Positions 3-12,100 of a stretch of DNA of 42,678 nucleotides are shown here, piece by piece. The notes beneath the pieces were generated by a model that had not been told where the DNA came from, ran no database searches, and saw only the letters and a program-made list of their open reading frames with translations. The position numbers and the translations under genes were made by a program. This DNA comes from an uncultured Treponema sp. Lineage in GTDB: Bacteria > Spirochaetota > Spirochaetia > Treponematales > Treponemataceae. Location: the NCBI GenBank assembly GCA_946410085.1, contig CAMJZA010000027.1, positions 1 to 42,678 of the forward strand, in the 5' to 3' direction. Position 1 is the first letter of the stretch. Each line of letters begins with the position of its first letter.

Positions 3-545
3 TACCAGAGCATGCTGGACACGGATACCCTGCTGAAGGGCGAGGATTACGGAGGTCTTAAAGAGAGCATCATCATCTTCCTGTGCCGCTTTGACCCTTA
101 CAAAAAGGGAATTCCGTGGTATACTGTACGGCGGAAATGCGAAGAGGACGGGAGCGTGGAAGTAGGCGATGCTGCCACCGTGCATGTGCTGAACTGCCGG
201 GCGCATGCAAAAGTGCAGGATGAGTCCCTGCGGGCGTTCATGAAGTATGTCCAGACGGATGAGGCGGAATCTGAGTTTACGAGGAGGCTGCGGAAAATGG
301 TTGAAGCACAGAAACAGATTGAAGGGACGAAGAAGCTCTACTTCTCATGGAGCCTGCACGATTACGACGTGCGGAACGAGGGCATTGCCATCGGAGAGAG
401 ACGGGGTGAGAAGCGGGGCAAAAGAGAGAACCGTCTTGAGACTGCCCGGAACATGCTGGCGATGGGTCTGGGAACTCACGAGCAGATTGCCGGAGCAACC
501 GGCCTCTCCCTTGCGGAAGTGGAAGAGCTGGCCGCCCGCCGGTAA
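3..545 (+). CDS. Rpn family recombination-promoting nuclease / PD-(D/E)XK putative transposase, C-terminal part (cut by window edge)
   Basis: The reading frame is open from the left edge (YQSMLDTDTLLKG...) and the visible ATG at 12 is internal, so the N-terminal nuclease core lies outside the window. The phrase MLDTDTLLKGEDY followed by a hydrophobic strand ending IIIFLCRFDPY is typical of the Rpn/PDDEXK_2 family, whose members promote RecA-independent recombination or act as small nucleases. After a charged helical stretch (RRGEKRGKRE) the protein ends in a small helical tail, roughly the last 35 residues, with the motif LAMGLGTHEQIAGATGLSL. That tail is shared with the short gene at 3533-3781. 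A GC-rich stem-loop at 562-588 follows the stop. Treponemes often carry many copies of this family. Family assignment is confident; activity cannot be judged without the catalytic part. Confidence 0.8.
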   Translation, partial: YQSMLDTDTLLKGEDYGGLKESIIIFLCRFDPYKKGIPWYTVRRKCEEDGSVEVGDAATVHVLNCRAHAKVQDESLRAFMKYVQTDEAESEFTRRLRKMVEAQKQIEGTKKLYFSWSLHDYDVRNEGIAIGERRGEKRGKRENRLETARNMLAMGLGTHEQIAGATGLSLAEVEELAARR

Positions 546-945: not shown

Positions 946-3369
946 TCAGCGGCGGCCTGCGGCTTCTTCCATCAGTTCCTTCAGCTCGGCGGCATTGTCC
1001 GCGACGAGCGCTGCCGCAAAGTAGAGGGCCGTAACGGACTCCGTCGTAAGCCTGCCCATCGGCACGGCACCTTCGCGCCACACGTTTGAAGCCGTAGCAA
1101 AACCGCCCAGGTCAACGGCTTTTTCCTGCTGCGAACAGCAGTAAAAGGTAACCCCGTACTTCTTTCCCCGGGCAAGCAGGGGCCGCAGGGAATAGCTGCT
1201 GTCCCGCATGTCGCCCGTTCCCCGGCCGTAAAGCTCCAGAATTACCGTATCCACCCCGCTTTCCGCACCGATCCGGTCCGCAAGGCGGCTTCCCAGCAGG
1301 CCGGGAAAGAGCTTCACGACCTCAAGGCGGGCAGCCGCATCGTTCAGGAGGCTGGCCATCACGTCCTTATCCGGCAGGGGAACGGAGAGAAAGCTTTCGG
1401 AAATGACGCCGCCGGCCCCCTGCCCGCCGGCAGGATTCCAGACCGAGAAGGAATCGTCAGAGCCGCCGGTATACTTCAGATTGAGCGGCGAAAGGAGCCT
1501 GCCCTTGTAGGCGACAAAGACTCCGCCCTTTTCTTCCCGTGCCGTCCGCACGGCGAGCGCAAGACTTTCCTTCGCCTCGGAAGATTCCGAAGGAATCGCC
1601 GAAGATGCGGTCAGGACAATGGGAACTTTTGAAGCGGAAAAAAGCCAGTACAGGAGGGCTGCCGTATAGGGGAGCGTATCGGTTCCGTGGGTCACGACAA
1701 TGCCGGTTGCAAGGCCGCTCTGCAGGTGTTCGGCAATTTCGCCGATCAGGACCGCCCAGTCGGAGGGTTCGGTTTCCTCGCTCAGCATGGAGCGCACCTT
1801 GACCACGCGCACGGGAGTCTCCCCTTCGTCCGCAAGCAGGGATTCCACGAGGGCGCAGTCCCCGGCGGCAACGGTTCCGTCGGCGAGCTTTTCCGCACTG
1901 ATGGAACCGCCCATCGTCAGCACGTAGATGACGGAGATGCCCAGACTTTCCTTGATGATTTCCTTGACGCGGACGGCATCGGCCCGGCCGCCGCTTTCCT
2001 TCATCACGAGGCCCGTCAGGTATTCAAGGGGCGGCATTTCGCCCCGGCGCAGGGACGCGACGGACTTGGGCTTGGCGGCAAGCACCCGGTCAATAATCGG
2101 CTGCAGTTCCGCCCGGTCGGACAGAATGCTCATGCCCGGCTCCTGCAGCAGGGCATCCAGGTCACCGCCCGCATGGCAGATGTCGGCTATCAGCTTCTTT
2201 GCAATGAAGCTGTTTATCCGGCGGGAAGAAAGCAGGCTGATAATCCTCGCATAGTCTGCGCTTTCCAGCTTGCACTGCTTGATGGAAAGGGAATCCTTAT
2301 GCAGCGCCTTCATCAGCTCGCCTGCCATCCAGCGGGCGGCAAGCAGGGGTTCGGCACCGGCGCGGACAGCCTCTTCAAAGTAGTCTGCCCGGTCCTTTTC
2401 CCGGCAGATGAAGACAGAGCGCAGGCGGGAAAGGCCGTAGTCCTGCATGAGCCGCGCCCGGCGGGCTGCGGGAAGTTCCAGTCCCTTATCCTCCCGGGAG
2501 GAGTCCGCAGGAGCGTGCAGGAGGGGAACGGTCACGGCGGGACTGACGGCTTCAAAGCGGTCCTTCTGCTCCCGGTACTGGTGGAATGATTCGGTACAGG
2601 AAAGCTCTTCGTTCCAGAGGCGGCTTTCTGTCTGCAGCACGCTGCCGGAGGACATGAGGTCTTCTTCCCGCGAAAGCTCGCTGTTTATCGCCTTGCGCAC
2701 GAAGTTAAAGGAGTTCAGGTTCCGCAGCTTTACGTACTGGTCGGGCAGGGCGGGGTATTCGGCAAGGGCGACATAGGCGTTGGAACGGATGGAAGCCTCC
2801 CCCGCACCCGGTGAAACGAGCTTGAGGTAGGTGAGCAGGGTGTAGAGTTCTTCAAGAAAAATCTCTGCCTCCTCTCCCAGTTCAAAGCCGCAGCCCGTCC
2901 GGATCCGCATGGTCGGACAGCCGGCATAGGTCCAGTCGACGGTGGCCTTTTTGCCGCCCGCACGGGTGAGCCGGCCCCGGTCTTCTTCGACCCGAATCTC
3001 TTCTATATATATGTCCTTCGTCTTCTGGTGAAAGTCAATCGGCATGCTGCCGCCTTCAGCAACAAGGACGGAAAGGCCGGTAAAGGTCCGGTCGTCCGGC
3101 GGTTCGGGCAGCTTGCCCGTCAGGCGCTCCAGTGCCGCCTCGTCCAGCATCCTGCCGCCGGTCGCCCGCACGAACGAAGAAACCTTGTGCAGGACGGACG
3201 GCTGTACATGGACGGCAGAAAAGGAGACCGGCGAATTATTCTTGCGCAGGAACTCCTTTTTTGCAGAAAGGATGTCTTTGGGACCGCCGTCAGCGCTTTC
3301 GGCAATGAACACACCGGGCACGGCGGACAGCAGGACCCGGACCTCGAGATACACATAGGACTTGAACAT
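946..3369 (-). CDS. GatB-like tRNA amidotransferase subunit fused to an L-asparaginase/GatD-like domain
   Basis: This 807-residue protein has three parts. Residues 1-285 resemble the GatB/GatE cradle (kinase) domain: YLEVRV at 7-12, VEEDRGRL at 127-134, RNLNSF at 216-221, QTESRLW at 246-252. Residues 309-477 match the GatB/YqeY tRNA-binding tail (ADYFEEAV, LISDICHAGG-like helices, EYLTGLVMK). Residues 478-800 are an asparaginase fold, with MGGSI at 486-490, THGTDT at 560-565 and a C-terminal half aligning with type I/II asparaginases and GatD. In archaea GatD (asparaginase-like) supplies ammonia to GatE (GatB-like) to convert Glu-tRNA(Gln); here both halves are joined. The N-terminal domain lacks the usual FYPDLPKGYQIS segment, and several conserved kinase residues are changed. 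The first asparaginase Thr motif reads Ser, which may still act as nucleophile. Start ATG 3369 has AGGAAG 5-6 nt upstream. Domain calls are secure; the reaction is unknown. Confidence 0.85.
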   Translation of the reverse strand: MFKSYVYLEVRVLLSAVPGVFIAESADGGPKDILSAKKEFLRKNNSPVSFSAVHVQPSVLHKVSSFVRATGGRMLDEAALERLTGKLPEPPDDRTFTGLSVLVAEGGSMPIDFHQKTKDIYIEEIRVEEDRGRLTRAGGKKATVDWTYAGCPTMRIRTGCGFELGEEAEIFLEELYTLLTYLKLVSPGAGEASIRSNAYVALAEYPALPDQYVKLRNLNSFNFVRKAINSELSREEDLMSSGSVLQTESRLWNEELSCTESFHQYREQKDRFEAVSPAVTVPLLHAPADSSREDKGLELPAARRARLMQDYGLSRLRSVFICREKDRADYFEEAVRAGAEPLLAARWMAGELMKALHKDSLSIKQCKLESADYARIISLLSSRRINSFIAKKLIADICHAGGDLDALLQEPGMSILSDRAELQPIIDRVLAAKPKSVASLRRGEMPPLEYLTGLVMKESGGRADAVRVKEIIKESLGISVIYVLTMGGSISAEKLADGTVAAGDCALVESLLADEGETPVRVVKVRSMLSEETEPSDWAVLIGEIAEHLQSGLATGIVVTHGTDTLPYTAALLYWLFSASKVPIVLTASSAIPSESSEAKESLALAVRTAREEKGGVFVAYKGRLLSPLNLKYTGGSDDSFSVWNPAGGQGAGGVISESFLSVPLPDKDVMASLLNDAAARLEVVKLFPGLLGSRLADRIGAESGVDTVILELYGRGTGDMRDSSYSLRPLLARGKKYGVTFYCCSQQEKAVDLGGFATASNVWREGAVPMGRLTTESVTALYFAAALVADNAAELKELMEEAAGRR

Positions 3370-3475: not shown

Positions 3476-3518
3476 GAGCTTGTGCGAAGCACAAGCTCGG
3501 GGAGTTCGCGTAGCGAAC
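3476..3518. repeat. Paired hairpins, REP-like intergenic element
   Basis: Two perfect inverted repeats stand side by side: GAGCTTGTG/CACAAGCTC with a 5-nt loop (3476-3498) and GTTCGC/GCGAAC with a 3-nt loop (3504-3518). They lie in the leader of the small gene at 3533. A second hairpin with the same GAGCTT/AAGCTC outer stem occurs at 37365-37386, which suggests a dispersed element. A further small palindrome TGTCC-N5-GGACA is at 3422-3436. Confidence 0.6.
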
Positions 3519-3532
3519 GGCAGGGAGGAATC

Positions 3533-3781
3533 ATGAGTGCAGATGCGATGCTGAGGTCTTTGAGCGATGACAGCTGGCGCTGGATAGAACAGGGGCGGAT
3601 AGAGGGGGCAGAGCGTGACAGGATAAGCAGTATCCATAGTGCCGAACGCCGGGGCAGACGCGAACAGGCCCTGACAGCCGCAAAAAACTTCCTTGCGATG
3701 AATATTTTAACTCACGAGCAGATTGCCCGGGGAGTAGGTCTTCCGCTGGAAGAGATAGAGAAACTGGCAGCTCAGATGTAG
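3533..3781 (+). CDS. Small protein with Rpn-type C-terminal helical tail
   Basis: The ATG at 3533 has a clear GGGAGGA ribosome binding site 6 nt upstream and is chosen over the in-frame ATG at 3482, which lies inside a hairpin. The 82-residue product has an unfamiliar N-terminal part (about 30 residues, acidic and Trp-containing) followed by a charged helix and the tail AAKNFLAMNILTHEQIARG. That tail aligns with the end of the Rpn nuclease at 3-545 (ARNMLAMGLGTHEQIAGAT). There is no nuclease core. It may be a free tail acting as a partner or modulator of Rpn proteins, or a decayed gene reopened with a new start. The good ribosome binding site argues it is translated. Confidence 0.6.
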   Translation: MSADAMLRSLSDDSWRWIEQGRIEGAERDRISSIHSAERRGRREQALTAAKNFLAMNILTHEQIARGVGLPLEEIEKLAAQM

Positions 3782-4052: not shown

Positions 4053-4499
4053 CTATTCGGTCAGAATCCTGATGATCTCAGACTTGTCCGACGTGTCGAG
4101 GATCTGCGCGCGCTTGTCGGCGGACTTGAACAGGAGGCTGACTTCTGCAAGGAACTGCAGGTGCGGTCCCGTCTTGTTCACCGGAGAAAGAGTCATTATG
4201 AAGATACGGCAGGGATCCTGATCAAGGCTGTCAAAGTCAACGGGATTGTCAGAGATACCGATGCAGGCGACGAGGTCAGAAACCGTGTCGGTCTTGCCGT
4301 GAGGAATCGCGATGCCGTGCTTCATGCCCGTCGACATCTTGCGCTCACGGTCAAGGACGCACTCCTTTGCGGCGTCTTTGTCCGTCACCTTTCCTGCCTT
4401 TACGAGTACGTCAAGCAGTTCATCTATAATCTCTTCTTTCGTTGTTCCCTTCAAATGAAGTTCTACCGTTTCCGGCGTCAATACAGTTCGTAAGTCCAT
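4053..4499 (-). CDS. PTS EIIA-type (fructose/nitrogen-family) phosphocarrier protein
   Basis: The product (148 residues from ATG 4499) starts MDLRTVLTPETVELHL and has the GIAIPHGK motif whose His is the phosphorylation site of the mannitol/fructose EIIA and PtsN family. Length equals that of free-standing EIIA-Ntr proteins. No EIIB, EIIC or sugar genes are adjacent and the gene has its own promoter and terminator, so a regulatory PtsN-like role receiving phosphate from HPr is more likely than sugar transport. A longer form starting at 4535 is possible by frame, but its start codon overlaps a perfect -35 box and lacks a ribosome binding site. The chosen start is only about 1 nt from the predicted transcription start. 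Confidence 0.85.
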   Translation of the reverse strand: MDLRTVLTPETVELHLKGTTKEEIIDELLDVLVKAGKVTDKDAAKECVLDRERKMSTGMKHGIAIPHGKTDTVSDLVACIGISDNPVDFDSLDQDPCRIFIMTLSPVNKTGPHLQFLAEVSLLFKSADKRAQILDTSDKSEIIRILTE

Positions 4500-4506
4500 A
4501 ATTCCA

Positions 4507-4535
4507 ATTTTATGTTTAGAATGGGAAATTGTCAA
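4507..4535 (-). promoter_or_regulatory. Sigma70-type promoter of EIIA gene, near-leaderless
   Basis: TTGACA (4535-4530) and TAAAAT (4512-4507) are spaced by 17 bp. Counting 7 nt from the -10 box puts the start point at about 4500, one base before the ATG at 4499. Confidence 0.75.
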
Positions 4536-4583
4536 GGAAAAAAGAGCTTTTTAAGAATAAATCGTGCAATCGGGGATTCCCTC

Positions 4584-4612
4584 TTGTTCTTATGACAAAA
4601 CTGGGTTATCAT
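4584..4612 (+). promoter_or_regulatory. Possible promoter for the gene at 4680
   Basis: TTGTTC and TATCAT are spaced 17 bp apart, giving a leader of about 60 nt. The match is moderate and other AT-rich hexamers lie between here and 4680. Confidence 0.35.
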
Positions 4613-4679
4613 AGTTAAGGAAAGGACTGCAAACCGCCGATAAGAGAATAGAGTACTATTTTTACAGGACGTAACACGT

Positions 4680-6095
4680 ATGGGAAGTGCAGAAAACGAA
4701 GATATCAATGCCAGAATTATCAAGGCAGTTGAGGACAAGGCCTCGTGGTTTAACGGTACCGTCCTTCCGAAGGTACAGGAAGGCTACCGCAATCACCTGA
4801 TTTTTGTAAAAAACCTCACGAATGCACTCCAGCGCCGTTCCCTCATTACGCCGGATCCCTACAAGAACGACAAAAAGATTACCGACGTCAACACCATTGA
4901 CGAAAGTCCCTTCAACGATGCGGACCGGGCTACCCAGCTGGGCATCCGGCTCGGCCAGTACGAGAATATGGTCGATTTCATCTGCACCTATGTCAAATTC
5001 GCCGTTGAACAGCTCCCGACTGCAAAGATAAAGAAACTCGTTGACTTCAACGGATCCTTCTCATGGAACTCGCTGACCCCCAATTCGGCACGGCAGAACA
5101 CCAAGGCCCTCGGTTCCGCCCTGATGGAACTCAAGACCACGACCCAGGGCGGCGGTGTCGCAATGGGCATGCTGTTCGAAAGCATTACCAAGACGGCAAA
5201 GGATCTGGAAGAAATGTCGCGGGATCTGAAAGCCGTCGGCGCCTTCCAGAAAGAACGATACAAGGGTGAAATCCGCAAGGCAATCCTCACCAAGCTCAGT
5301 CCGGAAACGCGGGCAAATGCGGCTGCCCTGCTCGAAGAAATAAAGAAGCAGATGCCGACGGCACTGCCCCGCCGCCCCTTCTCGGCAGAAATCGTTGACG
5401 AGCTGGTCAAAGAGGAAAGCGCCCCGAACCGGGACGAACTGCGGAACAAGCTGCTCCAGCACCTGAAGGTGCAGGAAGCGAAAGTTGAAAAGGAAGAAGA
5501 GTCCGTCAACGTCCATGAGATCATCATGGGAGCGGTACTCGCCTTGGGTTCCATGACGGACCAGTACAACATCGTCATGGGCAAGGTCATCACCAACCAC
5601 GACATACTCGCCTCCGAAGACCGGGGCTTCAAGCAGAAGCTGGCAAACCTCTTCCGCCGCCTCTTCGGGCTGGCGGATCCGCCGGTGGAATACCAGGTGA
5701 TCATCAATAAGAAAGGTTCGGATGAAAAGATGAGGGAAACCATCAATTATAATTCCTTCATGGCAGCCTTCTCCAAGCGCATTAAGTTCTATACTTCGCT
5801 CAACAGCACGGACAGTCCGAACTACCAGAAAATGAATTCCCAGACGGACGATTTCGTCTTCAACTGGGTCAACAAGCAGATGACGGAAAACGGGAGACTA
5901 CAGGTTTTGCTCGGCGCACTGGACGAATACTTCAAGCAGAATACGTCCGGCGTGAACCGTGCAAAGATAAAGGGCATTAAGATGGAGCTGACGACGCTGA
6001 AAAATGCGCTCGTCAAGGTAAATCAGCTTCGCTCCGAATATGCCTCTTATGTCGAGGAGGCGGAGCAGATGAAGAAACTTGGAATAACGAAATGA
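4680..6095 (+). CDS. Conserved-looking helical protein of unknown function
   Basis: A 471-residue soluble protein without signal peptide or membrane segment; I do not recognise its family. It is rich in charged and amphipathic helices, with probable coiled-coil stretches near residues 255-285 (HLKVQEAKVEKEEES) and at the C-terminus (LTTLKNALVKVNQLRSEY). A proline-rich linker around residue 230 (PTALPRRPFSAE) suggests two helical domains. AGGA lies about 12 nt before the ATG. Its TGA overlaps the ATG of the next gene by 4 nt, so its synthesis is probably coupled to that of the secreted peptide-binding protein downstream. This is unusual because one product is cytoplasmic and the other exported. 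Confidence 0.7.
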   Translation: MGSAENEDINARIIKAVEDKASWFNGTVLPKVQEGYRNHLIFVKNLTNALQRRSLITPDPYKNDKKITDVNTIDESPFNDADRATQLGIRLGQYENMVDFICTYVKFAVEQLPTAKIKKLVDFNGSFSWNSLTPNSARQNTKALGSALMELKTTTQGGGVAMGMLFESITKTAKDLEEMSRDLKAVGAFQKERYKGEIRKAILTKLSPETRANAAALLEEIKKQMPTALPRRPFSAEIVDELVKEESAPNRDELRNKLLQHLKVQEAKVEKEEESVNVHEIIMGAVLALGSMTDQYNIVMGKVITNHDILASEDRGFKQKLANLFRRLFGLADPPVEYQVIINKKGSDEKMRETINYNSFMAAFSKRIKFYTSLNSTDSPNYQKMNSQTDDFVFNWVNKQMTENGRLQVLLGALDEYFKQNTSGVNRAKIKGIKMELTTLKNALVKVNQLRSEYASYVEEAEQMKKLGITK

Positions 6096-7750
6096 AATTG
6101 AACATTCACCGTACGTCCGGGGCAAAACTGCTTCCGGCGCTTGCCCTTGCGGCAGCCCTCACGGCAGTTCCGCCTGCGGCACAGGTCTTTACCCCGCAGC
6201 TGGGGGAAGAGACTGAAGGGATACCGGGCGTTGACATGTCCCTGCAGCGGAACATCGTCATGCTGACGATGGGACACACCTACGATTTGAATCCGCAGAC
6301 CGCAAGCTACACGTCCGAAGCACAGCTGCTTTCAGGCTTATACGAGGGCCTCTTTTCCTACAGTCCCACAACGCTGGAACCTCAGAACGCGCTCTGCTCG
6401 TCCTATAAGATTTCCCGGAACAAGAAGCGCTGGACCTTTACGATCATCGACGGCGCAAAATTCAGCAGCGGAGAAAAGATTACCGCCGACAGCTTCCGTG
6501 AGTCATGGCTGAACCTCCTTTCGACCCCGAACGCTCCCTACGCATCCCTCCTGGACTGCATTGAGGGCGCGCGGAACTACCGGCAGGGAAAGGGCACGCG
6601 GGATGAGGTAGGCATTACGGCACGGGACGAAAAGACCCTGGTCGTGCACCTTGAGGAACCGGCGGAGCACCTGCCGAAGATTCTCTGCCACCACGCATTC
6701 AGCGTCGTCAGCAAGAAGAAGGACTCCTACAGCGGCGCCTTCGCCCTCAAGTCATACGAAAAGGGCCGGATCGAACTGGTCAAGAACAAGAACTACCGGG
6801 AAGCGTCGAATATCCTCATTCCGGGCATTACGATCCTCCAGAGCGACGATCTTGACGAGAACGCCTTCCTGTACAACACGGGCAAGGTGGACTGGATTCC
6901 CGAAGGCAACGTCAATGCGGCAAAAATCATCAACCGCAATTCCATTAAGGTTGCGGGGGAGTTCGGTACCTACTATATCTTCTTTAAGCTGAACGGGAAA
7001 AAGTGGAATACCCGGGAAATACGGGAAGCCCTGCTCGAGGCGATTCCCTACGACAGCCTGCGCGAGGGCATTACCGTTCCGGCGACGACGCTCGTCTATC
7101 CCCTCACCGGCTACCCGGATGTTGCGGGCTTTGACGACTATGACAGCGACGACGCCGTCATGATGATGGCGAAGGCGCGCGAAAAGGCGGGCATTCCGGC
7201 AAAAGAAAAGATTACGGTAAAGTTCGGCATCATGGACTCGGACTTCATGAAGAACTTCGTGCAGATCCTGCAGAAGGCCTGGCAGCCGCTCGGCGTCGAA
7301 CTCGTCAGCGAAAGCAGGCCGTCGGAACAGTACAACGGGGCAATTTCCGGCTGGGATGCAGACCTCTTTGCCTATTCCTGGATCGGCGACTTTGCAGATC
7401 CCCTTGCCTTCCTGGAACTGTTCAGGAGCGACTCATCGCTCAACGTTGCCGGATACCGCAACGAAGCCTTTGACGGCCTGCTGCATCAGGCTTCCGTCGC
7501 AGACGACAGCAGCGAGCATTACAAGCTGCTCGCCCAGGCGGAATCAATGCTGCTCGATGACTGCGTAATCATTCCGGTCTACCATCCCGTGAGCCTGCAC
7601 ATCATCGATACGGACGTCATCGGCGGCTGGCAGACGAACGCAATGGACCTGCACCCCTTCAAATACTTCTACATCCGCCGCAAGGAGCAGTCGCTTCCCA
7701 ATCTGGTCGCCGCTCCTTCGGACAAAAAGGAACTGCTGACCGGCTACTAG
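6092..7750 (+). CDS. Extracytoplasmic oligopeptide-binding protein (OppA/SBP family 5)
   Basis: The product (552 residues) has a classical signal peptide (ALALAAALTAVPPAA) and no lipobox cysteine. The mature part follows the SBP_bac_5 pattern: GHTYDLNPQTASYTSEAQLL near the start, then LYEGLFSY, a KRWTFTIIDGAKFSSGE strand typical of OppA/DppA, and a C-terminal half with DLFAYSWIGDFADP. Such proteins capture peptides or related solutes for an ABC importer in the cell envelope. No permease or ATPase gene is nearby, so it must work with distant components or have another role. It overlaps the preceding gene by ATGA and ends convergently with the next gene, the stop codons overlapping at 7747-7750. 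Confidence 0.85.
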   Translation: MKLNIHRTSGAKLLPALALAAALTAVPPAAQVFTPQLGEETEGIPGVDMSLQRNIVMLTMGHTYDLNPQTASYTSEAQLLSGLYEGLFSYSPTTLEPQNALCSSYKISRNKKRWTFTIIDGAKFSSGEKITADSFRESWLNLLSTPNAPYASLLDCIEGARNYRQGKGTRDEVGITARDEKTLVVHLEEPAEHLPKILCHHAFSVVSKKKDSYSGAFALKSYEKGRIELVKNKNYREASNILIPGITILQSDDLDENAFLYNTGKVDWIPEGNVNAAKIINRNSIKVAGEFGTYYIFFKLNGKKWNTREIREALLEAIPYDSLREGITVPATTLVYPLTGYPDVAGFDDYDSDDAVMMMAKAREKAGIPAKEKITVKFGIMDSDFMKNFVQILQKAWQPLGVELVSESRPSEQYNGAISGWDADLFAYSWIGDFADPLAFLELFRSDSSLNVAGYRNEAFDGLLHQASVADDSSEHYKLLAQAESMLLDDCVIIPVYHPVSLHIIDTDVIGGWQTNAMDLHPFKYFYIRRKEQSLPNLVAAPSDKKELLTGY

Positions 7751-8316
7751 TCCGCAAGGAGTGCGGCTATCCGGCCGGCATTCTCTTCCTTCCCCGCCCG
7801 CCCCATGTCAACCGTCATGTCGGCGGTCCGGGCGTAGCGGGCGGTCCGTTCCGCATAAAATGCATGAAAGATTGACCGTATCTCAAGCAGGGAGCGGGGG
7901 CTCTTGTCCGCGATGTAGGCGGGCAGGTTTTCAAAGCCTCCTGCCGGCAGCTCGCGGGCTTCCCTGATAATCCGGTCTGCGGCGGCATCTTCAGGCGCAT
8001 TGAGGAACACGAAGCGTCCGAGCGGCCTGAGCGCAGCGAGCGCCGCTTCATTCGCGCAGATGCCGCCGCCCGTCGCGATGACCGCCCGCTCACCGGCTGC
8101 CGTGAGCCGGGCAGCGAGCTGCCGGCAGGCTTCCGCCTCGGCAGCCTGAAAGGCGCCCGGACCGCCGTCCCGGTAGAGTTCACGGGGACTCCTGCCCGTC
8201 TGTTCGCAGACAAGGTCGTCGGTATCATAGCACGGAATGCCGAATTTCTGCGCAAGCAGCCGGGCCTGCGTTGACTTGCCGCAGTGCTTTATTCCCATCA
8301 AGATAATACAGTTCAT
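7747..8316 (-). CDS. Shikimate kinase family protein
   Basis: The product (189 residues) has a P-loop GIKHCGKST, then DTDDL, then ATGGGI, the order and spacing of shikimate kinase, which phosphorylates shikimate with ATP in chorismate synthesis. The ATG at 8316 is chosen because AGAGGA lies 7-8 nt upstream; a GTG two codons earlier would sit against that site. Two points make the substrate uncertain. The FRxxE shikimate-binding motif reads FQAAE, so the usual Arg is Gln, and the RPLL lid motif reads PRSLL. No other aromatic-pathway gene is near; the gene follows the membrane pair 12362-8420 in the same direction. It is most likely AroK, but a related small-molecule kinase is possible. Confidence 0.75.
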   Translation of the reverse strand: MNCIILMGIKHCGKSTQARLLAQKFGIPCYDTDDLVCEQTGRSPRELYRDGGPGAFQAAEAEACRQLAARLTAAGERAVIATGGGICANEAALAALRPLGRFVFLNAPEDAAADRIIREARELPAGGFENLPAYIADKSPRSLLEIRSIFHAFYAERTARYARTADMTVDMGRAGKEENAGRIAALLAD

Positions 8317-8343
8317 GGTCACATCCTCTTTTTGTGTTTTGCG

Positions 8344-8376
8344 GGCCGGTTGCAGGTGATTCCTGCCGTACCGGCC
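8344..8376 (-). other. Stem-loop between the GDYXXLXY gene and the kinase gene
   Basis: GGCCGGT/ACCGGCC enclose an inner GCAGG/CCTGC stem. No T-run follows on the minus strand, so it is a weak terminator or a processing/stabilising hairpin rather than a strong stop. Confidence 0.5.
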
Positions 8377-8419
8377 GGAGCCGCACGCTGTACGGTCCGT
8401 TCACTGCCGTGCAGGCCGC

Positions 8420-9115
8420 TTACTGCTGCGCGAGCCTGCGGCGGCAATACTCTTCATACGCAATCCGCTCCTCCCCGTCCAGCACCGTCAGGTCCTTCTG
8501 AATGCAGCGGCCGTCCCGGGCGACATAGACCGTCAGGATGGGCTCGAGCGCATTGAAATCATCCCAGCGGATGCGGTCTGCATAGTGCGCGAAGTTTTCC
8601 TGCATATAATATTCGTCAAAGGCATAGGCTGCCCGCACCGAAAAACCGTCATCCGTGTCGTGCCACCAGCTGCATTTTGCTTCGATATAGATGTCCCCGC
8701 CGGTTTCACCGGTTTCACCGGCATCACCGCGCTCCCTGCTGCCCTCCCCGGCCTTTTGGGGAAAGGCGTTTTCGGGAATTTCCCGGCGGATCCCGCCGAC
8801 CGTCCACAGGCCGTCGGCGCCCTGTACCATGCGGCAATAGATTTTCTTTTTCCTGCTGCCGGTCAGGTTGTCCCGGCTTTCCGCATCCAGATTGCTTCCC
8901 TTCAGCTGGGACTCGGAAAGCGTGAGCTTCACGTAGCGGCCCTTAAAGGGACTGAAGGGGTCATTGGCACGGCAGGCAAGGGAAACGATTCTGCCGTGCT
9001 TTACGGCATAGTGCTTTACCCGCGCACTGTAGCCGAGCAGGGACAGGGCCGCGGCAAGCTGCAGGATGACGGCTGCGGAAAGCAGGCACATGCGGCCTTT
9101 ATGAGCGGTTGTCAT
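8420..9115 (-). CDS. GDYXXLXY-type membrane-anchored protein
   Basis: The product (231 residues) starts at ATG 9115, preceded by AAGGAGG at 6 nt inside the end of the upstream gene; the two overlap by 17 nt. One N-terminal membrane segment (MCLLSAAVILQLAAALSLLG) is followed by an extracytoplasmic domain with DPFSPFKGRYVKLTLS, a variant of the GDYxxLxY signature (here GRYVKLTL). The family is regularly found next to DUF2157/DUF4401 membrane proteins, as here, and its function is unknown. A low-complexity RERGDAGETGETGG insert lies mid-protein. The C-terminal CIQKDLTVLDGEERIAYEEY region is charged. Assignment to the family is fairly secure from motif plus context. Confidence 0.7.
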   Translation of the reverse strand: MTTAHKGRMCLLSAAVILQLAAALSLLGYSARVKHYAVKHGRIVSLACRANDPFSPFKGRYVKLTLSESQLKGSNLDAESRDNLTGSRKKKIYCRMVQGADGLWTVGGIRREIPENAFPQKAGEGSRERGDAGETGETGGDIYIEAKCSWWHDTDDGFSVRAAYAFDEYYMQENFAHYADRIRWDDFNALEPILTVYVARDGRCIQKDLTVLDGEERIAYEEYCRRRLAQQ

Positions 9116-12100
9116 GAATGTCCTCCTTTTCCGGCTTTGTCTCCGCCTCTTTCCTGCGGTCCATGCGGAGCAGCAGCAGGTTGAGCACAAGCATTGCAAT
9201 GCCCAGTACGATGAACAGTACGCCCTTCGCGACAAAGCCGTAGGAATCGCTGAAGAATTTGATGATGAGGGCGAGGGCTGCATAGGCGGCGCACGCGTTT
9301 GCCTTTGCAAGGCTGCCGTCCGTATAGGCTTCAAGAATATACCAGCCTGCCGTCAGGAAAATGAAGGCAAAGCTTATGTACGAAAGAACTCCGGCAATCC
9401 TTGTCGGCTGCAGGAACGCCGGTCCGCCGCTGCCTGCGGCAGGGGCGGATCCCGTCCCCGCGAAGCAGGCGGTACAAAGCAGGAGCAGGAAACAGACGGC
9501 AACAATGAGGGCATACAGGGCAAGCAGGAAGTTCCAGCGCCGCTTTACGGCCATTCCCCCGTGCAGGCAGGCACGGACCAGCCGGGCGGCAGGCAGGAGG
9601 CAGATCCCCGCATGCAGGACAAGGGTCAGCAGGAGCGGCAGAATTTGCTCAGCAGGCGGACAGTGCAGGTGGTAAAATCTCGGTGTCACAAAGGCAGACA
9701 CGTAGATAATCACGACGCACAGGACCTGCCCGAGCCTGCCTGCCGCACCCATCGAGGTTGCCGCCCGCACAGGCCCCTTCGCGGGGACGGCGGCAGGGCT
9801 GTCCGCTTCCGCAGAAACAGCCCGCAGCTCCCGCTCCCGGCTGTACAGGTACAGCGCCGCGCACAAGAGCACAAAGGGAGAGCAGAGGAAGAAAGTTTCC
9901 GTCACGCCGTACAGGCAGCAGATGCCCGCCGCAGCGAACAGGACTATATAGGGAAGCCAGCGGAAGCGGCCGTCCCTGCGGAAACGACCGTCACTGCGCC
10001 AGCGGATGAAGCCGTAGAGCCCGGCAAGCGCATAGAGATACAGGAAGGCTTCGGGGAAGTCAGTTTCCCTTCCCCGGTACAGGAAGCAGACGGCACAGAC
10101 GCCCGCCAGGGCAAGGAGGCCGTCAAGCAACTCGATCCATGCACGATTCCGGACACCGTTCCGTGCACCAGCCCCGGAATCATTCATCGAGCCATTCCCC
10201 GAAGCGTTCCCGGCTCCCGACCAGACGAGGAGGACAAGGGCGGCCAGTGCGATACAGGCATACGAAACGAGCTGAAAGGGAACCGCCTCACGGTCATAGA
10301 CGGCAAGGCACTGTCCTTCCCGGCAGAGGAAGAAGGCGGCGGCCATCCAGACCGCCAGACACATGCGGGTCAGGCAGCCGAGAGCCCCGGCTTCCTGCGG
10401 ACTGCTGCGGGTCCGGCGGCAGGCAGCCGCCAGGAACAGAAGCAGGAAGGCTGTTCCTGCAAGCACCGGATAGTTCAGCTGCAGGACAAAGCAGGCCGCC
10501 CAGAAGAAGTATGCGCAGACGGCAGCAAAGGGCAGCCAGTAGGCAAGGACGCCGGCGCCGCCACCCCCTGCCACGGGCTCCTGCCCGGGCTCCGGTTCCT
10601 GTCCGGTCGCGGTCCCCTGACCGCTTGGGAACAGCCGCTCGCGGCGGACGACATGGTACGCGCAGACACAGAGCAGGATGCAGAAGTAGGCCGTGCACAG
10701 CTGGTTCTTCCCCAAGGGAATGACAGCGCCCAGGATCGAACAGAGCATCACAGCGACAAGGCCGGCAATGACGTCAAAAGAGTCCTTCAGCTTCCGGGAA
10801 CGGACAAGCAGGGCGGCCGCAGCAAGCACATACGACCCATAGAGTGCGATGTGCAGGGGGAGTGCCTGCGGCCGGAACACACGGTACAGGGGGAAGGGCG
10901 GCGTCTGGAGACAGGCCGTTGCGAGCAGGAGCAGGCCGAAGCTACAGGTCCGCATGATGCCGCAGGGGCAGATGCCCGCTGCCGCAACGAGAAGCAGGAA
11001 TGCGGCAACGGCAAAGACCGGCAGGTCCAGCTGCACCAGGCAGGCGGCAAGGAAGAGGCAGCAGAACAGGAGCACGGCCTGCCTGCGCCTGCCGTACAGG
11101 GCATGAAGCACGAACAGCAGAGAAAGCAGGAAAACGATGCCTGTCGGCGCAAAATAGAGCGAGCGCTGAAGGGGCAGCGAAAGGCAGCCTGCTGCGGTAA
11201 AGAGGACGGCAACGCCAAGCGCACAGGCAGGATACACGAGCTGCCATTTTGACAGCTGCCGGTGAGCCGGGAAGGGAACAAACGGCCAGGCAAGGGCGGC
11301 GGCCGTCAGGCCAACAGCGAGCGCAGAATCGAGCAGCATACCGGTGACGGACCGTTCTGCCTTCACCTGCAGCCAGCCGATGCCGCACCAGAAGCCGTTA
11401 TGGGAAAGGACAAGCAGGAGCACGCACAGGCCCGTAAAGGCCAGGGCAGCAAGGCCCCGGAAGTCCCGTGACAGCGCATATTCCAGTGCAAACACGGCCA
11501 GGGAAACGGAACAGACAATCCAGAGGCCGGGAATGCTCTTTTCCAGCACGAAGCCCAGCATTGCCGCCGCAATGACAAGCATGGCATGGCTGCCAAGGCG
11601 GAAGCGCCGTGCAAAGGGACAGAGGGCTGCAAAGAGCAGGTAAAAGAGGGCCGGCTCACCCTCCCCCGTCGCGGCAACGACGGCATAGGCGGACGAAAGC
11701 AGGAGGGAGAGCACGAAGACGCTGACGGACCGCATGGCGTAGGCCAGCAGGATGGACGAGATGCTCCACACGAGCAGGAACGCCGCCGTATTCCCCGGCA
11801 GGCGGCACACCTGGGAAATGTAGGCGACCACGCCGCCAAAGAGGATGGCCCACAAAAGCGCCATGCCTTCCTGCCAGACCGGCTTTGCAAGGCGCTTTGC
11901 CGAAGAGTACACGATTATGCCGCCTGCCTGGACGGCAAGCAGGAGCACAAAGGCAGAAAGGGCCTTTGTCATGCGGGGAATGGCATACCAGTTGTAGGCA
12001 ATGAGCGAAATGACGCCGCTCGCAATCAGGATGGCGGCAATGACGCTGAGCAGGACGGGAATGCTCTTGACGCTGAATCCCTGAAAGAGCGGCGGCTTCT

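Follow-up and report, generated by a model that had tools for sequence, protein, structure and literature searches.

A single open reading frame (ORF) on the minus strand of a 42,678-nucleotide stretch of DNA from an uncultured Treponema sp. (contig CAMJZA010000027.1, positions 1 to 42,678; the whole stretch is called the window here) encodes a GatB-like half joined to an asparaginase-like half. Related genomes carry two kinds of this fusion. In type I, the protein keeps a complete GatB kinase pocket, and its gene lies between homologues of gatA and aspS. In type II, to which the window gene belongs, the Mg-ATP pocket is rewritten. From sequence comparison, it is highly probable that type II descended from type I and lost the kinase function. 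The best overall explanation of the type II protein is that it is a noncatalytic, ligand-binding descendant of a working fused GatB, a reading that has about an even chance of being right.

The fusion itself is real. A preliminary description of this DNA had placed GatB-like and asparaginase domains in one chain at positions 946 to 3369, and the coordinates proved right, with Pfam, profile, and fold comparisons in agreement (gene on the minus strand). Three Pfam domains scored above cut-off in the window protein, GatB_N at residues 102 to 270 (E = 1.5e-19), GatB_Yqey at 329 to 476 (E = 3.5e-35), and the N-terminal asparaginase domain at 481 to 630 (E = 8.1e-25), whereas Asparaginase_C at 683 to 800 was weak (E = 0.0024; 18.3 bits against a Pfam cut-off of 34.6). 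The division proposed earlier, about residues 1 to 477 for GatB and 478 to 800 for the asparaginase family, is borne out by the profiles (1 to 476 and 481 to 801). The best NCBIfam matches were gatB models, under the equivalog cut-off (212 versus 338 bits), and the archaeal models were far under theirs (gatD, 72 versus 324 bits; gatE, 28 versus 319.6 and 52 versus 456). A family profile of the asparaginase half, built from 21 sequences, matched residues 4 to 319 of the 327 residues of Pyrococcus furiosus L-asparaginase (E = 6.7e-38), which means that both lobes are present; in that alignment the family's GGA stands opposite GGT and its HGTDT opposite HGTDT. The AlphaFold models were shallow (13 to 14 sequences), and that of the window protein had a mean predicted local distance difference test score of 77.6 and a predicted template modeling score of 0.58. 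In it, residues 1 to 479 matched the GatB fold (Z = 33.4, 432 residues, root-mean-square deviation [rmsd] 5.2), and residues 479 to 651 matched the asparaginase N lobe (Z = 22.6, 169 residues, rmsd 2.3). Alignment with full-length asparaginases gave a Z of ∼21 to 22 but an rmsd of 11 to 13, and the packing of the two lobes in the model is therefore unreliable.

The fusion is also widespread. In 9 of the 59 genomes near that of the window, its own included, the query was matched over all or most of its length. A profile search gave a type II copy in 89 of 390 Treponematales genomes (hand count; at least 730 of 796 profile positions), and a chance fusion or misassembly was rejected on the strength of the 89 genomes. 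Named type II carriers among the matches listed include Gracilinema caldarium, Breznakiella homolactica, and several Treponema metagenome-assembled genomes (MAGs), all of the order Treponematales. For type I, a search with the asparaginase half over 392 genomes of the phylum found 32 with a match at an E value of ≤1e-20. Seven of these lie outside Treponematales, five with fusions and two with free-standing asparaginases (G675 and G435). A MAG record (L120) is a sixth fusion of the type I kind outside the order, and a class sweep added 19 more candidates, of which 18 were type I fusions. Altogether, 24 of the 25 type I loci are outside Treponematales; G182, within the order, holds both types, its type I locus being L083. 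The fusion may also exist outside the spirochaetes, beyond the matches listed. As the preliminary description had surmised, no account of a GatB-asparaginase fusion was found in the literature searched (open-licence papers only); the available part of a paper on spirochaete signature indels mentions GatB only for Brachyspiraceae (PMC3726837).

Type I has the setting of a working amidotransferase. A gatA homologue lies directly upstream and a homologue of the non-discriminating, archaeal-type aspS directly downstream at 25 of 25 loci (family assignments were made on L083 and extended to the other loci by homology), and in 14 of the 15 type I genomes in which gatC was looked for, it is on the same contig, upstream. 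Of the 23 genomes counted, 20 have no gatB match other than the fused gene (5/5, plus 15/18 from the class sweep); a second, unfused gatB is present in G756, G744, and G791. The complete canonical kinase pocket is kept in all 25 proteins, but the catalytic threonine of the asparaginase-like half is replaced, by alanine in 24 and by serine in one. This half is therefore probably not a source of ammonia, which very likely comes from GatA, the product of the adjacent gene. Type I most likely couples a working GatB to an asparaginase-like domain that would bind but not cut, and plausibly this domain is an asparagine sensor on GatCAB. The operon resembles the system of the Asn-transamidosome with a second, archaeal-type aspartyl-tRNA synthetase in Deinococcus and Thermus, in that gatC, gatA, and gatB are combined with a non-discriminating enzyme of this type. 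It differs by the asparaginase-like domain on GatB, and type II has left the operon altogether. The five type I genomes outside Treponematales that were examined for these enzymes have asparaginyl-tRNA synthetase (AsnRS; 5/5) and mostly glutaminyl-tRNA synthetase (GlnRS; 4/5), as described, in the accessible portion of the source, for the tRNA-dependent asparagine synthesis of Deinococcus and Thermus (PMC4206432).

In type II, the kinase pocket is changed in a uniform way. The available part of the yeast GatFAB study gives H36, E156, and E186 as the Mg2+ contacts of GatB and E34, T189, N230, and S232 as its ATP contacts (PMC4027206); these were mapped to the window protein by motif. Ten pocket residues (E9, H11, H126, E128, E129, E155, D197, N199, E214, and K216 in window numbering) are identical in 35 of 35 ordinary GatBs and in all 25 type I proteins. 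The 25 include L287, a partial match to the asparaginase half with an X at the lysine position; neither the trees nor the 24-row type I comparison below used this row. In the 55 type II proteins, the same ten places hold, in order, E (50), D (4), or Q (1); R (54, one gap); R (55); E (55); E (55); R (53); N (54); Y (45), H (8), or F (2); K (55); and R (53). The window protein has kept E9, E128, and E129 and has R11, R126, R155, N197, Y199, K214, and R216 at the changed places. This means that two of the three mapped Mg2+ ligands are arginine in type II and that one ATP contact is Tyr, His, or Phe. Over the whole alignment, only nine positions combine near fixation in type II (at least 53 of 55) with a different near-fixed state in type I (at least 22 of 24), namely, H11R, H126R, M134L, L144M, E155R, D197N, E214K, I215L, and K216R. 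All nine are in the GatB half, and six of them (H11R, H126R, E155R, D197N, E214K, and K216R) belong to the pocket; the same comparison found no such change in the asparaginase-like half. The changes center on the pocket and amount to a switch of one active site rather than to general decay. The window protein has none of the four zinc-site cysteines of the cradle; ∼35 of 55 type II proteins keep them, as do all 25 type I and 34 of 35 canonical proteins, so they are not essential to every GatB.

With the canonical kinase pocket gone, the window protein is very unlikely to transamidate. The preliminary description had raised the possibility of a single-chain tRNA-dependent amidotransferase, for which one could cite the two domain types in one chain and the type I relatives with an intact GatB pocket. 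Yet six pocket residues, Mg2+ ligands among them, are replaced in 53 to 55 of the 55 type II proteins, the asparaginase nucleophile is alanine in most, and gatA stands beside type I, where ammonia very likely comes from GatA. In addition, a BLAST search of the window (E = 1e-20) found no homologue of gatA or aspS, and a search for gatCAB elsewhere in the same genome found an ordinary gatB on contig C1, which makes the fusion the second of two GatB-family genes there, and a single gatC match, on a contig other than that of the window. A single-chain amidotransferase is thus extremely unlikely.

The asparaginase-like half has lost its nucleophile in most members of both types. Free-standing homologues have the threonine of GGT in 72 of 72 proteins compared and HGTDT in 71 of 72. 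In the fused proteins, alanine occupies the nucleophile place in 68 of 80; among the 55 type II proteins, there are 44 with Ala, 6 with Thr, 4 with Ser (the window protein among them), and 1 with Val. (Neither the 55 type II proteins nor the 72 free-standing rows include the broken gene L084.) The places discussed here presumably correspond to Thr12, Thr89, Asp90, and Lys162 of EcAII. In the accessible portion of one account of EcAII, Thr12 is a possible, debated nucleophile, and Asp90-Lys162-Thr89 form a triad (PMC6667453). According to their PDB titles, 7c8x, 5dnc, and 6pa9 are Thr-to-Ala or Thr-to-Val asparaginase mutants solved with asparagine bound; hence, the change common in the fused proteins is one used for substrate trapping.

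A second role proposed in the preliminary description was a tRNA-bound asparaginase, that is, an active enzyme tethered to tRNA or the translation machinery and using Ser489 as its nucleophile. The window protein does have S489, T563, D564, and K632, and the few type II proteins with Thr or Ser could be read in the same way: on a quick tree of the fused halves that included all 55 type II rows, the six Thr proteins were clustered, needing 2 changes compared to a shuffled mean of 5.8. On that tree, Ala versus Thr/Ser required 6 changes. However, the predominance of alanine (24 of 25 type I and 44 of 55 type II proteins, with valine in one more) argues against activity, and serine needs at least four changes for five proteins, so it seems to come and go. 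A missing loop tyrosine (79 of 80 fused proteins) at first seemed to be a further argument but was dropped as evidence, since by the same crude count 36 of 72 free-standing homologues lack it too. The case for a tethered enzyme, for which the serine of the window protein speaks, is weak, and we consider it quite unlikely.

Descent was examined on trees of the two halves. In an 83-row tree of GatB halves (IQ-TREE with bootstraps; 24 of the 55 type II rows used), type II formed one clade (100/100), which was nested among type I and which, together with seven type I rows, split from all others (98/95). The ordinary gatB of the window's own genome was in a distant clade. In a quick tree of the asparaginase halves (19 of the 55 type II rows used), all 43 fused rows formed one clade (Shimodaira-Hasegawa-like approximate likelihood ratio test [SH-aLRT], 100) on a branch of 2.5, with the 22 free-standing rows outside, and type II had the same type I neighbors as on the GatB-half tree; the asparaginase-half trees carry SH-aLRT support only, and long branches meet there. 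The fused domain also fell outside the GatD clade, and descent from archaeal GatD is not supported by this quick tree. Type I has several ordinary GatBs nested near it: the GatBs of Breznakiellaceae, the family of G182, join L083 (100/100), and L321 joins L189 (100/99). These look like repeated loss of the domain, but the tree cannot tell gain from loss, and weak support for some deep branches (29/8 and 59/84) makes it uncertain how often the domain was gained or lost.

Identity within the two types shows a reversal. In type I, two GatB halves are on average 67% identical and two asparaginase halves 50%, with the GatB half higher in 99.6% of 276 pairs. In type II, the values are 47% and 56%, with the GatB half higher in only 2.6% of 1,485 pairs. 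Judged by these alignments, conservation has moved in type II from the GatB half to the asparaginase-like half. Two other explanations were considered. One is that type II is a functionless relic on its way to loss, which would suit its patchy presence, a broken copy in G062, a split copy in G385, and the long branches of the GatB half. It is very unlikely, since 120 positions are near invariant across 55 proteins from three families, the new pocket sequence is uniform, and the asparaginase-like half retains a mean identity of 56%. The other is that the asparaginase-like domain is a structural or oligomerization part and that type II acts on GatCAB, or on some other partner, as a decoy or assembly factor. 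The fusion of the domain to a working GatB in type I would agree with this, and so would its presence or absence among close GatBs (the L321-L189 and Breznakiellaceae-L083 pairs above), as expected of a dispensable add-on. Types I and II, however, have 41 near-invariant positions of this half in common, including S530, E531, G562, D564, and N630, which are assigned to the pocket by homology and which a mere scaffold would not need. We regard the structural explanation as unlikely.

Gene order gives a further indication of how type II arose. In 39 of 48 type II loci, the fusion gene is followed on its upstream side by a divergent gene for an MGH1-like glycoside hydrolase, its direct neighbor, and BLAST detected this gene at one further locus (L064). 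The same gene lies divergently upstream of gatA in five of six wide-flank type I loci (L083 is without it). Type II is read as the copy left at the old place after gatA and aspS were lost. Among the type II loci compared, ppx/gppA is present in 26 of 49 and ppk1 in 30 of 49; the type I locus L192 also has ppx and ppk1 nearby, and L189 has ppx. A link of type II to polyphosphate or starvation signaling is possible, and these neighbors, together with the new basic residues, suggest as a candidate idea that the rewritten pocket may bind polyphosphate or (p)ppGpp.

The noncatalytic, ligand-binding explanation would run as follows. The ancestor was very probably a spirochaetal GatB, still working as such, to whose C terminus an asparaginase-like domain had been added, and its operon, gatC-gatA-gatB::asparaginase-like-aspS (non-discriminating), encoded a tRNA-dependent asparagine-forming complex. 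In Treponematales, one copy then parted from gatA and aspS, and its Mg-ATP pocket was rewritten, for the most part by basic substitutions. Type II would now be noncatalytic, with a conserved pocket kept in the asparaginase-like half although the nucleophile is gone in most members. This half probably binds a small amino acid, for which asparagine or aspartate is the natural guess. The GatB half would serve as a scaffold and may still hold a tRNA by its helical/YqeY tail; in the available text on yeast GatFAB, the helical and YqeY domains are modeled on the tRNA D-loop (PMC4027206). Type II would thereby report the state of the Asn/Asp pool, or of charged tRNA, to a partner. Of these elements, the sequences themselves show the fusion, its descent from type I, the fixed change of canonical pocket residues, the missing nucleophile in most members, and the higher conservation of the asparaginase-like half. 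A noncatalytic, ligand-binding role for type II seems evenly balanced between right and wrong, and ligand binding, tRNA binding, and regulation are what we infer. Asparagine or aspartate as the ligand is a tentative choice, somewhat more apt to fail than to hold. Regulation is also the one role among the three proposed in the preliminary description that survives, in this inferred form.

Several observations weigh against this explanation. First, type II appears dispensable: no copy was found in 295 of the 390 Treponematales genomes, six more have broken, split, or partial copies, and the gene is broken in G062 (L084, about 8091 to 10461). It is split in G385 (L085, 8821 to 11150), and these two cases mean that the gene can be lost. 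Second, the pocket of the asparaginase-like half is not invariant, T563 being changed in five and D564 in two of the 55 proteins. Third, the members with Ser or Thr at the nucleophile place could have activity restored, and the clustering of the Thr proteins looks as if function had been regained and kept. Fourth, the window locus itself lacks the gene order common to its relatives. Finally, the window's own genome contains AsnA, AsnB, and AsnRS, so that a role in asparagine metabolism is not forced, and AsnA is present in three of the five type I genomes outside Treponematales that were searched for it (G635, G657, and G654).

In 40 hand-chosen genomes, AsnRS was above cut-off in 39, GlnRS in 19, and AsnA was found in 26; AsnB was above cut-off in 21 of 59 genomes (the 40 plus 19 more). 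Many of these genomes have asparagine synthetases, and so the ligand need not be asparagine. Of the type I genomes among the 40, G576, G671, and G182 have neither AsnA nor AsnB above cut-off, while the three named above have AsnA; this pattern agrees with tRNA-dependent asparagine synthesis as in Deinococcus and Thermus, without requiring it. In the window's family, GlnRS was above cut-off only in G298, and therefore the ordinary GatCAB is probably needed there for Gln-tRNA. The fusion is the sole asparaginase-family gene found in the window's genome.

A bolder version of the explanation, which we think rather doubtful, is that an asparaginase became an asparagine receptor in GatB, giving feedback in type I, and was then freed as a kinase-disabled, amino-acid- or tRNA-responsive regulator in type II, in many relatives beside polyphosphate kinase and exopolyphosphatase genes. 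No tRNA-dependent amidotransferase with a built-in feedback sensor is known to us, and in type I a naturally disarmed asparaginase sits exactly where such a sensor would. Type II would be a clear example from nature of how an enzyme of translation becomes a pseudoenzyme, seen across three families of one order. For genes of this kind, the automatic names GatB and asparaginase could both mislead.

Three known systems help to place the fusion. The GatB of bacterial GatCAB has the same GatB_N plus GatB_Yqey architecture and fold, and type I shares its complete pocket and lies between gatA and aspS. Both fusion types differ from it by the extra C-terminal domain, type II also by the rewritten Mg-ATP pocket and the loss of zinc cysteines in part of the clade, and the window fusion by having neither gatA nor aspS beside it. 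The type I-like L-asparaginases of P. furiosus and P. horikoshii are like the fusion over both lobes, and HGTDT and the lysine are kept in most fused proteins; the fusion differs by the replaced catalytic threonine, its separate long-branch clade, and the attachment to GatB. Archaeal GatDE likewise pairs a GatB-type with an asparaginase-type protein, and in it GatD supplies the ammonia. The preliminary description had drawn this analogy, but it does not hold: GatD and GatE are separate chains, GatD-type rows keep the threonine that most fused proteins have lost, the fused domain is outside the GatD clade, and the kinase-intact relatives have gatA for ammonia.

TABLE 1 Features of the type II fusion gene in the window (residues numbered as in the window protein)
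Feature	Position	Strand	Remarks
Type II GatB::asparaginase-like fusion gene	946..3369	-	807 codons plus stop; ATG at 3369-3367
Possible ribosome-binding site (AGGAAG) of the fusion gene	3380-3375	-	could serve as such
GatB half, residues 1-476 (cradle, helical, YqeY-like tail)	1942..3369	-	PF02934 and PF02637; fold Z 33.4 to GatB
GatB_Yqey tail, residues 329-476; expected tRNA contact	1942..2385	-	PF02637, E 3.5e-35; yeast GatFAB model (PMC4027206, available part)
Arg11, place of Mg2+-ligand His (~yeast H36)	3337..3339	-	R in 54/55 type II, one gap
Arg126, place of the conserved His before EED	2992..2994	-	R in 55/55 type II
Arg155, place of Mg2+-ligand Glu (~yeast E186)	2905..2907	-	R in 53/55 type II
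Asn197 and Tyr199, places of Asp and ATP-contacting Asn (~yeast N230)	2773..2781	-	N in 54/55; Y45/H8/F2
Lys214 and Arg216, places of Glu and Lys	2722..2730	-	K in 55/55; R in 53/55 type II
Asparaginase-like half, residues 481-801	967..1929	-	PF00710; family profile versus PDB, E 6.7e-38
Ser489 (codon TCC), place of catalytic Thr (GGT to GGS)	1903..1905	-	alignment of fused proteins
Thr563-Asp564, second asparaginase triad, kept	1678..1683	-	both in 25/25 type I; T 50/55, D 53/55 type II
Lys632, second asparaginase triad, kept	1474..1476	-	type I K18/R6/X1; type II K50/R2/H2/gap 1

Around the fusion gene, three short ORFs of the window (12 to 545, 570 to 899, and 3482 to 3781) had no Pfam match. 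By eye, they have a C-terminal tail motif in common, ~HEQIA..GL.LEEVE.LA, and may be what is left of a single family, a possible reason why the gene order was lost. A phosphotransferase system EIIA type 2 protein is encoded at 4053 to 4535 on the minus strand, at a distance of 0.7 kb from the fusion. In many Treponematales, ppk1, ppx/gppA, and the MGH1-like glycoside hydrolase gene form a conserved block beside the fusion, for example, at L027 3933 to 9010.

Some candidates for further fusions were rejected. A betaproteobacterial one (L122; MAG contig RFSW01000010.1) turned out to be two adjacent genes: at 4504 to 8383, gatA-like, gatB, and asparaginase genes are separate and consecutive, the last two 1 base apart. 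This arrangement is possibly a picture of how a GatB-asparaginase fusion can begin. L286, a class candidate with a long open frame, is not fused. An 879-amino-acid GatB ORF (L011/L310) has only GatB domains by Pfam, and by BLAST a gatA ORF overlaps its upstream stretch; its extension is probably an open-frame artifact.

Other asparaginase-like genes of the phylum were also noted. Although GatDE is usually called archaeal, gatE-like and gatD-like genes of the archaeal type lie side by side in G435 (L195, 8338 to 10245 and 10215 to 11627), names that rest on inspection by eye and on the asparaginase-half tree; this genome also has an ordinary gatB and gatC. Several Spirochaetia genomes encode short, single-lobe asparaginase-like proteins in frames of roughly 160 to 230 amino acids (e.g., G576:C1:1834385-1834846), which resemble in length the atypical asparaginase structures of Rhodospirillum rubrum.

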